From: Lachnospiraceae bacterium
Lineage (GTDB): Bacteria > Bacillota > Clostridia > Lachnospirales > Lachnospiraceae
Direction: 5' to 3'
Length of the DNA stretch: 64,000 nt
NCBI GenBank assembly: GCA_022483465.1
Contig: JAKVNF010000001.1
Span: forward strand, 682,001 to 746,000
The notes under the pieces are model-generated. The model searched no databases and was not told where the DNA came from. It worked only from the letters and a program-made list of their open reading frames with translations. Below are positions 11,628 to 28,926 of this stretch, piece by piece (positions within the stretch are counted from its first letter, which is position 1; each line of letters begins with the position of its first letter). Both the position numbers and the translations under genes were made by a program.

Positions 11628-12566
11628 TTACTGCTCTCCCTCGTAAGGAACCACGGCACCCTGGTAGGTGTCATTGATGTAGTTCACGATGGTGTCGCTG
11701 TGCAGGGCATCGGTCAGAGCCTTGATCTTGGGCAGATCCTGGTTGCCGTCCTTGACTGCAATGATGTTCACGTACTGCTGGATGGCATCGCCGTCTGCAG
11801 ACTCGGTTGCCAGTGCATCATTCTGCACGGAGAGGCCGTTCTCCAGTGCGTAGTTGCCGTTGATGACGCCGAAGGCGACGGAAGGAAGCTGCTTAGCCAC
11901 CTGGGCTGCCTCCACCTCAACGAGCTGAAGGTTGTGCGGGTTCTCGGTGACATCGTTGACAGTGGCGTTGACGCCGACACCGTCAGCAAGCTTGATCAGG
12001 CCGACCTGCTGGAGCAGGAGCAGGGCTCTTGCCTCATTGGTGGTGTCGTTCGGGATGGCGATCGCATCGCCGTCTGCGACATCGTCCAGAGAGGACTTGG
12101 TGCCGCCGTAGATTCCGAAGGGCTCATAGTGGATCTTGCCGTTGGTGGCGACCACAAGGTGTGTGCCGTTCTCCTCGTTGAAGGAGTTCAGATAGTTGAC
12201 ATGCTGGAAGTAGTTGGCGTCAAAGTCACCGGACTCGACGACGTTGTTGGGCTGGACGTAGTCCTCGAACACCGTCACCTCCAGGTCGTATCCCTCGTCT
12301 GCCAGAAGGCTCTTGGCCTGCTCGAGGATCTCGGAGTGGGGCGTCTGGGAAGCTGCCACGGTGATGACGTTGTCTCCGTCTGCCGCTGCGGTGTCTGCAG
12401 TGGTCTCTGCCTCGGCAGCGGCCTCGGTGGTTGCCGCAGCAGCCTCGGTGGAAGCGGCGGCAGCCTCGGTGGCTGCGGTGTCAGAGCTGCTGGAGCTTCC
12501 GCATCCTGCCAGGAATGCGGTGCCCAGAGCGGCTGCGGTCAGTGCTGCAAGTAACTTCTTCTTCAT
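11628..12566 (-). CDS. metQ: Methionine-binding lipoprotein MetQ
   Basis: This is the extracellular substrate-binding lipoprotein of the D/L-methionine ABC importer. The signal peptide ends in a lipobox (TAFLAGC), and the Cys at about residue 22 would be lipidated. A low-complexity Ala/Thr/Glu-rich linker of about 45 residues follows, then the NlpA domain beginning VITVAASQTPHSEIL and containing YFQHVNYLNSF and the nucleotide-free ligand pocket. Length 312 residues. The ATG at 12566 has AGGAG 8 bases upstream. It is the last gene of the metN-metI-metQ operon. Confidence 0.93.
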   Translation of the reverse strand: MKKKLLAALTAAALGTAFLAGCGSSSSSDTAATEAAAASTEAAAATTEAAAEAETTADTAAADGDNVITVAASQTPHSEILEQAKSLLADEGYDLEVTVFEDYVQPNNVVESGDFDANYFQHVNYLNSFNEENGTHLVVATNGKIHYEPFGIYGGTKSSLDDVADGDAIAIPNDTTNEARALLLLQQVGLIKLADGVGVNATVNDVTENPHNLQLVEVEAAQVAKQLPSVAFGVINGNYALENGLSVQNDALATESADGDAIQQYVNIIAVKDGNQDLPKIKALTDALHSDTIVNYINDTYQGAVVPYEGEQ

Positions 12567-12668: not shown

Positions 12669-13328
12669 TCAGATGTGCCGCTTGTCCATGCGCACCGAGA
12701 TCAGGGTGCCGATGGCCTGGAAGAGCTGGACCAGAAGGACCAGCAGGATGACGGTCGTCCAGAGGATGTCCGCCTGGTAGCGGTAGTAGCCGTAGCGGAT
12801 GGCGATGTCGCCGAGGCCGCCGCCTCCGATCGTGCCCGCCATTGCGGAGTACCCGAGGACCGTGCCGATCGTGATCGTCGCGCCGGAGACCAGGGACACC
12901 CTGGCCTCGCCGATGAGGACCCGGGTCACGATCTGGAAGTTCGTGGCGCCGACGGACTGGGCCGCCTCGATGACGCCGTGGTCCACCTCATTGAGGGAGG
13001 ACTCCACCATTCTGGCGATGAGCGGTGCCGCGGAGATCACCAGGGGCACCACCGTCGCGGTGGATCCGTAGGTCTTGCCCACGATCAGCATCGTCAGGGG
13101 CATCACCAGGATCAGCATGATCAGGAACGGGACGGAGCGCATGATGTTGGCCGCGATGTCCAGGATCCGGTACACCACCTTGTTGGGGTGGAGGCCCTCC
13201 TTTGCGGTCACCGTCAGGGCGATCCCCCAGGGAAGACCCAGGACATATCCGAAGAGCGTGGAGACCAGAGTCATGTACACGGTCTGCCAGACGCCGGTGA
13301 GTATCATATTGATTTCATTTGCGGTCAT
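12669..13328 (-). CDS. metI: Methionine ABC transporter permease MetI
   Basis: The 219-residue permease has five membrane helices and the EAA coupling loop (VIEAAQSVGATNFQIVTRV). The preferred start is the ATG at 13328, which shares one base with the TGA of metN and has GAGGAGG 8 bases upstream; a GTG one codon earlier is also possible. It forms the membrane channel of the MetNI importer. Confidence 0.93.
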   Translation of the reverse strand: MTANEINMILTGVWQTVYMTLVSTLFGYVLGLPWGIALTVTAKEGLHPNKVVYRILDIAANIMRSVPFLIMLILVMPLTMLIVGKTYGSTATVVPLVISAAPLIARMVESSLNEVDHGVIEAAQSVGATNFQIVTRVLIGEARVSLVSGATITIGTVLGYSAMAGTIGGGGLGDIAIRYGYYRYQADILWTTVILLVLLVQLFQAIGTLISVRMDKRHI

Positions 13329-14362
13329 CACTGCACCTCCTCGACTGCGAGTCCTCTCTCCTTCAGATAGGAGATGATCTTCTCCTGGGATGCGGGATCC
13401 GCCGGAAGTCCCAGGATCATGTCGCCCCGGGCGGTGCCGCCCACATCCATGGTGCTCGCCCGCAGGATGTTGACGGGGACGCCCACGGTCAGGATCATGT
13501 TTGCAATGACCGGTTCAAAGGAGGACTGGGTGCCGAACACAATGCGGATCTTGCGCGACTCGTGGAGGATCGGCACTGCCTTGCTCTTGGCCTCCTGCTC
13601 CTTTGCGAACTCGTCCGGGTCCTTGCCCTCGATGACGAGCTGCTTGGCTGCCCGGGACTGGGGATGGGTGAAGATGTCCTCCACCAGGCCCCGCTCGACG
13701 ATCTCACCGCTCTGCACAATGGCCACGTTGTGGCAGATCTCCCGGACAACGGACATCTGGTGGGTGATGATCACGATCGTGATCCCGGTCTCCCGGTTGA
13801 TCTTCTTGAGCAGCTGCAGGATGGACTGGGTCGTCTGGGGATCCAGGGCGCTGGTTGCCTCATCGCACAGCAGGATCTTGGGATCCATGGCAAGCGCTCT
13901 TGCGATGGCGACTCTCTGCCGCTGTCCGCCGGAGAGCTGTGCGGGATAGGCCTGCGCCTTGTCGGACAGCCCCACGGTATCCAGGAGCTGCTCCGCCTTC
14001 TTTTTGGCCTCCGCCTTCGTCACCTTGTGGATCAGAAGTGGAAACATCACGTTGTCGATGACCTTGCTCTGCATCAGCAGGTTAAAGCCCTGGAAGATCA
14101 TCCCGATGGAGGACCGAAGGCTCCGAAGCTCTGCCCCGGAGAGTTTGGAAAGATCGTGGCCCTCCACGATGACCGTGCCCTGTGTGGGCACCTCCAGGTA
14201 GTTCAAACATCGCACCAGTGTGGACTTGCCGGCGCCCGACATGCCGATGATGCCGTAGATGTCGCCCTCCTCCACCTCAAAGTTGATTTCCTTGAGGGCC
14301 TGCACCGTCGCATCCTTTGTCACAAAGGTCTTGGACAGGTTCCTCACTTCAATGATAGGCAT
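13328..14362 (-). CDS. metN: Methionine ABC transporter ATPase MetN
   Basis: This ATPase drives methionine import. It has Walker A GMSGAGKST, signature AQLSGGQRQR, Walker B ILLCDEATSALD and H-loop VIITHQM, followed by a C-terminal NIL domain of about 90 residues (from IRIVFGTQSSFEPV), which binds methionine and inhibits transport when the cell is replete. Length 344 residues. The ATG at 14362 follows a purine-rich GAGAGGGAAA. It is the first structural gene behind a leader peptide and an internal terminator, so expression is probably attenuated. Confidence 0.93.
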   Translation of the reverse strand: MPIIEVRNLSKTFVTKDATVQALKEINFEVEEGDIYGIIGMSGAGKSTLVRCLNYLEVPTQGTVIVEGHDLSKLSGAELRSLRSSIGMIFQGFNLLMQSKVIDNVMFPLLIHKVTKAEAKKKAEQLLDTVGLSDKAQAYPAQLSGGQRQRVAIARALAMDPKILLCDEATSALDPQTTQSILQLLKKINRETGITIVIITHQMSVVREICHNVAIVQSGEIVERGLVEDIFTHPQSRAAKQLVIEGKDPDEFAKEQEAKSKAVPILHESRKIRIVFGTQSSFEPVIANMILTVGVPVNILRASTMDVGGTARGDMILGLPADPASQEKIISYLKERGLAVEEVQ

Positions 14363-14400
14363 AACTGTTTCCCTCTCGTTTCCATCCTGCGGCGGGCACA

Positions 14401-14437
14401 GAAAAAGACAGGTGCCTGCCGCGCAAAGCACCTGTCT
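14401..14437 (-). terminator. Attenuator terminator in the metN leader
   Basis: Minus-strand AGACAGGTGC and GCACCTGTCT form a perfect 10-bp stem around a 12-base loop, followed directly by TTTTTC. It lies 39 bases before the metN start and 20 bases after the stop of a Met-rich leader frame, the layout of a ribosome-controlled attenuator. Confidence 0.82.
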
Positions 14438-14457
14438 CCCATCATGCTCTCACAATG

Positions 14458-14574
14458 TTATGGAAACAAATGCATCGCCCGCTGCGGAATCTCCCACATG
14501 CACATCGCACACTGGGACATTCGTGTGTCACTCATTCGCATCTGTGTGAACTTGTTGACCGCTGCGCTTCTCAC
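14458..14574 (-). CDS. Met-rich leader peptide of the metNIQ operon (candidate)
   Basis: From a GTG at 14574 the frame encodes 38 residues; AAGAGG lies 8 bases upstream. Counting from the GTG, Met occurs at positions 12, 14, 19, 24, 26 and 34, and Cys at 22 and 25. An internal ATG at 14541 would give 27 residues with six Met including the initiator, but it has no Shine-Dalgarno. The stop codon is 20 bases before the attenuator stem. A hairpin (14487-14522; GAAT-TCCCA with TGGGA-ATTC) lies inside the coding part. The high Met content in front of a methionine importer is the key evidence. Translation is not proven. Confidence 0.65.
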   Translation of the reverse strand: MRSAAVNKFTQMRMSDTRMSQCAMCMWEIPQRAMHLFP

Positions 14575-14619
14575 GATGGTTACCTCTTGTTTGTTCGCAT
14601 TTCCTACTTGTTGCCTAGG

Positions 14620-14648
14620 AATTTACACCACCGCGTCGCCGCTGTCAA
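14620..14648 (-). promoter_or_regulatory. Promoter of the metNIQ operon
   Basis: Minus-strand TTGACA (14648-14643) and TAAATT (14625-14620) are 17 bases apart. A TATAAT at 14672-14667 is an alternative -10 but has no good -35. Confidence 0.6.
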
Positions 14649-14733
14649 TCGCAATCCGCAAGTTCCATTATACGCATTCTCGATGACTGGTTATAAGTTT
14701 TTCCGATCACAGCCGGGCCTTTTTGTGATTTTC

Positions 14734-16044
14734 TTATCGCTCGCACTTCCAGAGTGCCGCACTGCAGGGCGCCAGATGGGAGCCGCCGCCGAAGTCGTGG
14801 AGCTTCCCGGTGATCAGGTCCACCGCCTGGCCGCAGCCCGCGTCGAAGTGGGCCACGTACTCGTTCTCATCCGCGTTGATCGCCACCAGCACCCGCTCGT
14901 GCTCGCTCTTTCTCTCAAAGATGTACTGGCGGTTGGTGAGGAGGACCTTTCGGAAGCCGCCGTAGCACAGGGCCTCGCTCCCGGTCTTTGCCTTGAGGCA
15001 GGCCGCGACATAGTCGGTGAGCCCGTTCCAGACCGGCTTGTCCACCGCGGGGCGCAGCGCCTGGTCTCCGTCCTCCTTTCTCCCCTCGATGCCCCACTCG
15101 CTTCCATAATACACACAGGGATAGCCCGGCATGCCGCACATCAGGGCAAAGGCAAGGGGCAGGTGCTTCTTGTTGGTCAGGATGCTGGCAATTCTCGTCA
15201 CGTCATGGTTGTCCACAAAGCTCATCAGGTGCATGCCCGGGTACAGATCCCAGGGATCCGTGCCGAACTGCCGCTCCAGGGAGGAGTTGATCTCAAACAG
15301 ATTCATGCTGTTGAAGCTCGAGTAGATTCCCTTGTAGCACTCGTAGTTCGTGACGGAGTGGCACATCTCGGGATTCATGATCTGTCGGTAGTCGCCGCCC
15401 AGGATCTCTCCGATGAGATAGAAGGCAGGCTTCATCTGGTCGGTCTCCCAGCGAAGGCGCTTTAAGAAGTTGCGGTTCACCATGTAGGCCACATCCAGCC
15501 GCAGGCCGTCGATGTCGTAATCCCGCACCCAGCTCTTGACGCTGTCGATCAGGTAGTCGCAGACCGCCGGGTTGTCGAGATTGAGCTTGACGAGATCGTA
15601 GTTGCCCTCCCAGCCCTCGTACCAGAGGCCGTCGTTCCAGGCGTCGTTCCCGCCGAAATTCAGATAGAACCAATCCTTGTACTGGGAGTTCTCCCGGTTC
15701 TTCAGAACATCCTGAAAGCCGAAGAATCCCCGGCCCACATGGTTGAAGACGCCGTCCAAAAAGATCCGGATGCCGTTCTCGTGCAGGGCGGCGCAGACCT
15801 TCGCAAAGTCCTCATTCGTCCCGAGGCGGGGGTCGATCTTCTGGTAGTCCCGGGTGTTGTAGCCGTGGGTGTCCGAATCAAAGACCGGTCCGAAGTAGAC
15901 CGAGGTGATGCCGAGCTTTTTGAGGTGGGGGATCCAGTCCAAAACCTTCAAAATCCGGTGTTCCAGGACGCCGTCATTGGCAAACGGCGCGCCGCACATC
16001 CCCAGGGGATAGATCTGATACATTGCCATTTCTTCTGCCCACAT
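14734..16044 (-). CDS. GH13 alpha-amylase family glycosidase (cytoplasmic)
   Basis: The 436-residue enzyme should hydrolyse or transglycosylate alpha-glucans or maltodextrins. It has the four GH13 regions: DGVFNHV near residue 97, GLRLD with nucleophile Asp184, the acid/base Glu213 in YLIGE, and FVDNHD with Asp278. There is no signal peptide, so it acts inside the cell on imported oligosaccharides. The size and the N-terminal MYQIYPLGMCG resemble cyclomaltodextrinase/neopullulanase-like enzymes lacking the N-terminal beta domain. The ATG at 16044 has AAAGGAGG 9 bases upstream. It is a single-gene unit; substrate specificity cannot be told. Confidence 0.88.
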   Translation of the reverse strand: MWAEEMAMYQIYPLGMCGAPFANDGVLEHRILKVLDWIPHLKKLGITSVYFGPVFDSDTHGYNTRDYQKIDPRLGTNEDFAKVCAALHENGIRIFLDGVFNHVGRGFFGFQDVLKNRENSQYKDWFYLNFGGNDAWNDGLWYEGWEGNYDLVKLNLDNPAVCDYLIDSVKSWVRDYDIDGLRLDVAYMVNRNFLKRLRWETDQMKPAFYLIGEILGGDYRQIMNPEMCHSVTNYECYKGIYSSFNSMNLFEINSSLERQFGTDPWDLYPGMHLMSFVDNHDVTRIASILTNKKHLPLAFALMCGMPGYPCVYYGSEWGIEGRKEDGDQALRPAVDKPVWNGLTDYVAACLKAKTGSEALCYGGFRKVLLTNRQYIFERKSEHERVLVAINADENEYVAHFDAGCGQAVDLITGKLHDFGGGSHLAPCSAALWKCER

Positions 16045-28241: not shown

Positions 28242-28316
28242 CGGGGTGTGGCTCAGCTTGGCTAGAGCGCCTGGTTTGGGACCAGGAAGTCGCAGGTTCG
28301 AATCCTGTCACCCCGA
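28242..28316 (+). tRNA. tRNA-Pro (anticodon TGG)
   Basis: Acceptor CGGGGTG/CACCCCG, anticodon stem CCTGG/CCAGG, loop TTTGGGA, T-arm GGTTCGAATCC. CCA not encoded. Confidence 0.95.
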
Positions 28317-28346
28317 CTTCTTAAACTAAATGCGTTTCGCTCCGAT

Positions 28347-28417
28347 GCGGGTGTAGTTCAGTGGTAGAACACCAGCCTTCCAAGCTGGATATGTGGGTTC
28401 GATTCCCATCACCCGCT
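28347..28417 (+). tRNA. tRNA-Gly (anticodon TCC)
   Basis: Acceptor GCGGGTG/CACCCGC, anticodon stem CCAGC/GCTGG, loop CTTCCAA; 71 bases. It complements the two GCC copies. Confidence 0.95.
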
Positions 28418-28422
28418 TTCAT

Positions 28423-28496
<74 letters not shown>

Positions 28497-28527
28497 TTTG
28501 GGAAGAATCGTGAGATTACCCCTATAT

Positions 28528-28602
28528 GGTGGGTATGGCGTAGTTGGCTAACGCGCCAGATTGTGGTTCTGGAGACCCAGGGTTCGAGTCCCTGTACCCA
28601 CC
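28528..28602 (+). tRNA. tRNA-His (anticodon GTG)
   Basis: Acceptor GTGGGTA/TACCCAC with the extra G-1 opposite C73, anticodon stem CCAGA/TCTGG, loop TTGTGGT. Confidence 0.95.
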
Positions 28603-28632
28603 CTCTTTTAAGAAAGGCAGCGGCAATATCAT

Positions 28633-28705
28633 TGGGCTATCGCCAAGCGGCTAAGGCACAGCACTTTGACTGCTGCATTCGCCAGTTCGAATCTGGCTAG
28701 CCCAG
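28633..28705 (+). tRNA. tRNA-Gln (anticodon TTG)
   Basis: Acceptor TGGGCTA/TAGCCCA, anticodon stem CAGCA/TGCTG, loop CTTTGAC. Confidence 0.95.
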
Positions 28706-28710
28706 TTAAC

Positions 28711-28783
28711 GGGCGATTAGCTCAGGTGGTAGAGCACTTGACTTTTAATCAAGTTGTCGTGGGTTCGAGTCCCATATCGCTCA
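28711..28783 (+). tRNA. tRNA-Lys (anticodon TTT)
   Basis: Acceptor GGGCGAT/ATCGCTC (one G-U), anticodon stem CTTGA/TCAAG, loop CTTTTAA. Confidence 0.95.
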
Positions 28784-28795
28784 TGAAATTTCTGC

Positions 28796-28824
28796 AACGC
28801 CTTGGTTTTGCCGGGCGTTTTTTT
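28796..28824 (+). terminator. Terminator between tRNA-Lys and tRNA-Leu
   Basis: AACGCC/GGCGTT stem with 12-base loop and T tract. It must be leaky, or tRNA-Leu has its own promoter, because tRNA-Leu follows 22 bases later. Confidence 0.65.
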
Positions 28825-28846
28825 CGTGCCAAGGGGATCTGTCTAT

Positions 28847-28926
<80 letters not shown>

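Follow-up and report, generated by a model that had tools for sequence, protein, structure and literature searches.

The sequence analysed is a window of 64,000 nt, the whole stretch of DNA under study, and all coordinates are positions within it. The leader and metNIQ lie on the minus strand, along which the order is an alpha-amylase-family gene, a promoter, an inverted repeat, a Shine-Dalgarno sequence, a short leader open reading frame (ORF), a terminator and metN (14362). The individual features are:

ORF end 14734, minus strand: alpha-amylase-family gene, the upstream neighbour (PF00128)
14643-14648, minus strand: -35 hexamer TTGACA of the leader promoter (sequence and promoter scan)
14620-14625, minus strand: -10 hexamer TAAATT of the leader promoter, spacer 17 nt (sequence and promoter scan)
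14601-14621, minus strand: inverted repeat TTCCTA-N9-TAGGAA at the expected transcription start, a candidate operator (repeat searches)
14583-14588, minus strand: Shine-Dalgarno AAGAGG of the leader ORF (sequence)
14458-14574, minus strand: leader ORF of 38 codons, GTG start at 14574, TAA at 14460-14458 (sequence and upstream scan)
14487-14522, minus strand: hairpin within the leader ORF, probable 1:2 protector (predicted folds)
14494-14511, minus strand: Cys22-Ala-Met-Cys-Met-Trp27, where stalling would free the antiterminator (codon-by-codon folding model)
14462-14481, minus strand: predicted antiterminator 5' strand, 12-bp core GCATTTGTTTCC at 14473-14462, within the last ORF codons (duplex energy)
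14420-14439, minus strand: predicted antiterminator 3' strand, core at 14439-14428, overlapping the terminator 5' arm (duplex and folding)
14402-14437, minus strand: intrinsic terminator, 10-bp stem 14437-14428/14415-14406 and T tract (sequence, terminator scan and duplex work)
13328-14362, minus strand: metN, ABC ATPase with NIL domain (PF00005, 128.7 bits; PF09383, 66.8 bits)
12669-13331, minus strand: metI permease (NF008049, 215 bits, cut-off 212)
11628-12566, minus strand: metQ lipoprotein, NlpA/MetQ (PF03180, 267.8 bits)

The promoter, Shine-Dalgarno sequence and GTG at 14574 of the original prediction are all present in the sequence, and a promoter scan of 14300-14760 returns a single promoter-like site, with 0.4 expected in shuffles. 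Translation of the ORF gives the leader peptide MRSAAVNKFTQMRMSDTRMSQCAMCMWEIPQRAMHLFP and confirms the reported six Met and two Cys in its last 27 codons. The terminator is also as described: a perfect 10-bp stem (AGACAGGTGC/GCACCTGTCT) followed by a T tract starts 20 bases past the stop codon, and the terminator scan finds one such site against 0.4 expected. The second hairpin that had been noticed (14522-14487) appears in the predicted fold, where it looks like a '1:2' protector. The stability of the whole-leader fold is unremarkable (z -1.46; 14 of 200 shuffles as stable).

Judged by sequence, the downstream genes are predicted to be metNIQ and to serve the amino acid sensed by the leader. 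MetN scores 351.4 bits on TIGR02314, below the cut-off of 499.7, and the metQ product stays below the cut-offs of the NCBIfam MetQ models; because of these shortfalls, assignment of methionine as the substrate rests on MetI, the NlpA family and the operon.

Regions upstream of metN were taken from relatives (61 genomes), from the genus (62 genomes, 35 strong matches), from a named genome collection (80 loci) and from a family sample of 299 genomes, nearly one per genus, 90 of which have a strong metN match. After removal of duplicates, 175 regions were scanned; the scan picks the ORF start that gives the top score, so composition figures are biased upward. When the 500 nt preceding metN in the window are dinucleotide-shuffled 100 times, no shuffle gives an equally Met/Cys-rich ORF. 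A Met/Cys-rich short ORF is listed in 31 of the 175 unique upstream regions and, by that list, there is none in the other 144. The list carries some judgement, as 31 regions had 0/100 shuffles, from which L175 (2.43) and L101 (2.06) were dropped for their low score, while L129 and L005 (1/100 shuffles each) were added by hand, restoring the number to 31. At a Met-plus-Cys ORF score of at least 3.7, sense strands of 29 of the 175 regions qualify, against 0 antisense and 0 reversed sequences; at a score of at least 5, the sense count is 21, again with 0 antisense and 0 reversed. The family sample has 83 unique loci, of which 17 pass (0/100 shuffles and a score of at least 3.7). Examples are L150 (MNMMMCCCETMCMCNMCFTAF), L107 of Sporofaciens musculi (MKATFHQNMNQNMMMTGCVDMCMMCMMNMAY), L122 of Anaerocolumna aminovalerica (MNMMMCCGHMCGSMYMAYCCACYDT), L033 (MKMMCSPMCCMMYRYLTE) and L031, the nearest relative of the window leader (MRRADVNNFIEMRIADMRMSMCAMCRQDIR). 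Leader-like ORFs beyond the window's family come from a class-wide search of 29 loci, which includes two from that family (L247 and L252), and are found at L254 (1/100 shuffles), L260 and L275. On the MetN tree, leaders are clustered yet patchy: they need 16 changes where shuffles need 29.1, and none of 500 shuffles gets by with as few.

Comparison of all 190 residue pairs shows that Cys plus Met tops the sense counts at a score of at least 5, with 19 sense and 0 antisense. For single residues at the same score, Met yields 19 sense ORFs versus 0 antisense and Cys 0 versus 0, so that the statistical signal comes from Met, with Cys as its companion. Cys is present in all 19 ORFs selected by Met alone, where it makes up 62 of 630 residues of ORFs that are not independent, compared with a background of 3.6%; the leader signal is therefore probably Met plus Cys. 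A purely Met signal was rejected because Cys accompanies Met, although no ORF passed the threshold on Cys alone, and the earlier view of the leader as a reader of methionine is right as to its richness in Met but has to be widened to Cys. Of the 886 internal residues in the 31 listed ORFs, 213 are Met and 95 are Cys, and every one of the ORFs (31/31) contains Cys; they had been selected on Met plus Cys.

The leader appears to be a short, putatively translated ORF, enriched in the relevant codons, whose frame is kept in relatives. In columns 19-82 of the group E alignment, where Met/Cys are concentrated, every gap is a multiple of three, which does not hold for the tail that follows. Group D gives a leader pN/pS of 0.28 over 5 pairs and group E one of 0.42 over 21 pairs that are not independent; L004/L033 stand at 0.17, based on two changes, and the window and L031 at 0.73. 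Conservation of Met codons in relatives, proposed at the outset as a check, is seen for Met/Cys in group D (identical at 63/65, against 62/85 for other residues) and in group E (184/268 against 116/253). It does not extend to the window and L031, between which Met/Cys are kept no better than other residues (5/9 against 11/20); counted from the peptides, both carry five Met and two Cys where they align.

A terminator lies downstream of the leader in 30/30 leader loci examined; shuffled downstream regions give any terminator call in 20/150 cases, and none of the 150 matches the real terminator in stability. The competing duplex was evaluated in 30 of the 31 leader loci (L125, a near copy of L124, was omitted), over a span that opens 25 nt upstream of the stop codon and closes 35 nt downstream of it. 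The window has a 12-bp pairing between GCAUUUGUUUCC (14473-14462) and GGAGACAGGUGC (14439-14428) in the terminator 5' arm, and the extended antiterminator duplex reaches -27.3 kcal/mol (z -5.28; 0/200 shuffles). The terminator flank thus has a competing leader strand, as had been claimed, but the partner first named for it is a different one: TGTCCC/GGGAGACA, with TGTCCC outside the span searched, is probably not the main antiterminator, since the printed stalled folds show the 14473-14462/14439-14428 helix instead. Over the 30 loci, the antiterminator has a mean z of -2.04, with p <=0.05 in 17 and p >0.05 in 13, and there is no signal at L107, L124 and L188 (z 0.07, 0.24 and 0.14). A competing antiterminator is present in the window and weak in several other loci. 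When terminator arms were permuted among 19 clade representatives, hand-picked after the single duplex results were known, 0 of 20000 permutations reached the observed sum of -292.0 (mean -232.2, sd 12.4). That own arms beat permuted arms implies that the match between the two segments is maintained despite sequence divergence between clades; own-arm ranks among the 19 are poor for L188 (18), L192 (17), L129 (12) and L107 (10). Group E preserves the antiterminator helix in 91.1% of cells, compared with at most 54.5% when it is slid, with zero two-sided changes and a result not above column shuffles; the group E terminator covaries.

Folding was computed with a model ribosome of 13-nt footprint moved codon by codon, footprints of 10 and 16 shifting the result by one codon. 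In the window, P(terminator) is 0.84-0.92 without a ribosome, falls to 0.02-0.42 while the A site holds any of codons 21-28 and is 0.92 from codon 29 through the stop codon, with a further dip at codons 8-14. Folding the leader with and without a stalled ribosome, as had been suggested, thus gives the terminator in the ribosome-free state and the antiterminator upon stalling at codons 21-28. Leader shuffles are equally low at Met/Cys codons in 1/400 cases and, in a second set, in 0/600, altogether 1/1000; requiring both other states to reach at least 0.8 as well also gives 0/600 in the second set. Equilibrium folding produces a clear switch (change >0.3) in 4 of 30 loci and none in the other 26, where co-transcriptional folding must therefore be assumed. 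Classical attenuators also depend on co-transcriptional kinetics.

Taken together, the locus very probably encodes a ribosome-mediated transcription attenuator of metNIQ that reads the charging of tRNA-Met and, probably, of tRNA-Cys. Attenuation, the mechanism originally put forward, is the best explanation because Met/Cys leaders, terminators and matched antiterminators recur in relatives while the DNA diverges. With ample Met and Cys, folding predicts, and we infer for the cell, that a ribosome reaching the end of the 38-codon leader would cover 14481-14462 and that the terminator 14437-14402 would then form. When Met or Cys is scarce, the ribosome would stall in the Cys22-Trp27 cluster and free the antiterminator strand, which, according to the computed pairing, would bind the terminator 5' arm, and RNA polymerase would continue into metNIQ. 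An untranslated leader is predicted to fold so that the hairpin blocks the antiterminator strand and the terminator forms. Against the attenuator stands the consideration that the start of translation should itself be slower when Met is short, and in the model slow initiation favours termination.

The same downstream switch could be operated by nascent-peptide arrest, in which the Met/Cys peptide would itself sense a ligand such as Met, SAM or a metal, for example Cu(I). Met/Cys motifs can bind Cu(I), and similar peptide blocks are kept within groups (AMQMNM..MN.M..MMCRM in group E, MCMMCMM.MAY in group D). Between clades, however, no common residue order is visible by eye beyond richness in Met/Cys, and Met codons vary in number and place, which makes arrest by the peptide quite improbable.

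Covariance-model searches gave no match at the leader, so that S-box, T-box and other Rfam RNAs were rejected for it, in agreement with the earlier remark that no S-box or T-box was recognised. At the gathering threshold, the whole window returns nothing besides 10 tRNAs, and a permissive search of 14300-14760 yields two microRNA-family matches (E 3 and 5.9). Seven tRNA genes form a cluster at 28242-28926 of the window. There is likewise no Rfam match in 40 metN loci of the family sample, with the leader locus L129 among them, and no riboswitch in 20 loci chosen as leader-bearing (three tRNAs only). S-boxes are found in 52 of 62 genus genomes; the window's own genome has one, before a gene that we take from its sequence to be metK, and six T-box matches elsewhere, none above the cut-off. 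S-boxes do precede metN at L025, L027 and L029, in other families of the order, and a T-box does so at L024.

Five of the 62 genus genomes have one match each to a conserved RNA block, CGTTCCG...GGRCAATGGYAACGGG, that precedes the metN terminator (L004:1757-1885, L033:2567-2695, L011:2588-2721, L017:2626-2758 and L041:2588-2722). The block has no plausible Rfam match, is absent from the window's genome in the search of genus genomes and is possibly a small cis-regulatory RNA. L017 and L041 keep the block and the terminator without a visible Met-rich ORF; these two answer in part to the relatives named beforehand as contrary evidence, in which an RNA is kept but the Met codons are not. An RNA element, either a riboswitch or a protein site, that governs the terminator and leaves the Met-rich frame incidental would find its best case in these five same-genus genomes, two of them leaderless. 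It is very unlikely here, given that the search showed no copy of the block in the window's genome, that the window leader is without an Rfam match, that Met/Cys enrichment is confined to the sense strand and that the frame is conserved in relatives.

The perfect form of the inverted repeat TTCCTA-N9-TAGGAA is unique in its own genome. With up to two mismatches, it occurs in 29 of 175 metN upstream regions, both with and without a leader, versus 3.75 expected from shuffles; genome-wide, it is not enriched at this tolerance (78 sites, versus 311 for a backward-read control). A protein acting at the TAGGAA repeat may provide a further level of control. CymR (Rrf2) was considered as the regulator; the excerpts consulted on CymR print no site sequence with which the repeat could be compared. 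At L002, L005, L036, L107 and L124, a second promoter-like sequence is seen by eye between the leader stop and the terminator; that of L036 is TTGACA-17-TATAAT, from which a transcript would start at the terminator hairpin. Could such sequences, recognised by eye, be a leader-independent bypass? A chance Met-rich frame before an ordinary terminator, with metNIQ driven by promoter and operator only, is hardly credible in view of the window shuffles (0/100), the sense/antisense ratio of 29:0 and the matched antiterminators, even if the inverted repeat is found also at leaderless metN promoters and the 16 changes on the MetN tree make the leaders patchy.

For the attenuator itself, a broader reading is evenly poised: that it represents a widespread Clostridia class, repeatedly gained and lost, which senses both sulphur amino acids, supplants S-box and T-box in Met import and works despite Met-dependent initiation. 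If true, a Met/Cys leader family across many Lachnospiraceae genera would be an added way of sensing for Met import in common gut and rumen bacteria. It also raises the question of how a Met-codon attenuator copes when Met starvation hits initiation too; the many Met codons, together with Cys codons, may be the answer.

Classical attenuators are those of the trp, his, leu and ilv operons. The window shares with them control codons, a terminator, a competing antiterminator, a protector hairpin and three predicted states; it differs in the use of two sulphur amino acids, in that Met doubles as the initiator residue and in the position of the antiterminator strand within the last leader ORF codons. 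In Staphylococcus aureus, a leucine-rich attenuator peptide has reportedly been recorded. Discussion of sulphur genes in Firmicutes mostly centres on S-boxes, T-boxes and regulators that bind DNA. Both S-box (RF00162) and T-box (RF00230) resemble the window in controlling Firmicutes sulphur genes by premature termination, but neither matches the window leader.

The closest precedent lies in Streptomyces lividans TK24, for which a Met leader (MetL) of metNIQ is proposed in the available part of PMC8079986. As in the window, a short leader (MSTTSDRTPATEATTTPGARCMCRRMCAF) stands before metNIQ, and its Met and Cys gather towards the end; unlike the window, the transcript is described there as leaderless and without a typical intrinsic terminator (PMC8079986), and in the same part the authors point to methionines and threonines (PMC8079986). 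The original remark that no described Met-rich leader for MetNIQ in Lachnospiraceae was known to its author holds for that family as far as the matches listed go, and has to be read beside this S. lividans case. Among the matches listed, which cover open-licence literature and few subscription papers, there is no Met-codon leader from Lachnospiraceae or other Firmicutes. In the excerpt of their work, Naville and Gautheret describe a His leader in bacilli and consider that leader peptides had until then gone unreported outside Proteobacteria and Actinobacteria. Campylobacter jejuni has a proposed Met leader peptide, MetL, preceding metBA (PMC3847290), and a second proposed one, the Met-rich CJsORF19, MMYQMR, preceding Cj0772c, a D-methionine transport binding protein (PMC11955535). 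According to the excerpts, a short RNA ends behind the MetL stop codon, its translation start is seen by initiation-site profiling, and MetL orthologs are confined to C. jejuni, C. coli and C. doylei. In contrast to the window, the Campylobacter leaders have few Met codons (3 in MetL), and the excerpts mention no Cys. Two further systems, each seen in extracts of the respective paper, read one side of the signal at other genes: the Rhodobacterales cysS attenuator uORFC-8-2 has Cys codons in its uORF (PMC8632094) and reads Cys only, and at Streptococcus fthC uORFC-39-1 (PMC11109978) uORF initiation, rather than Met codons, is proposed to reflect Met supply via tRNA-fMet. The pair of Met and Cys as a signal is not named in the accessible portions of these related papers; the mechanism is known, and the lineage is broad and new.
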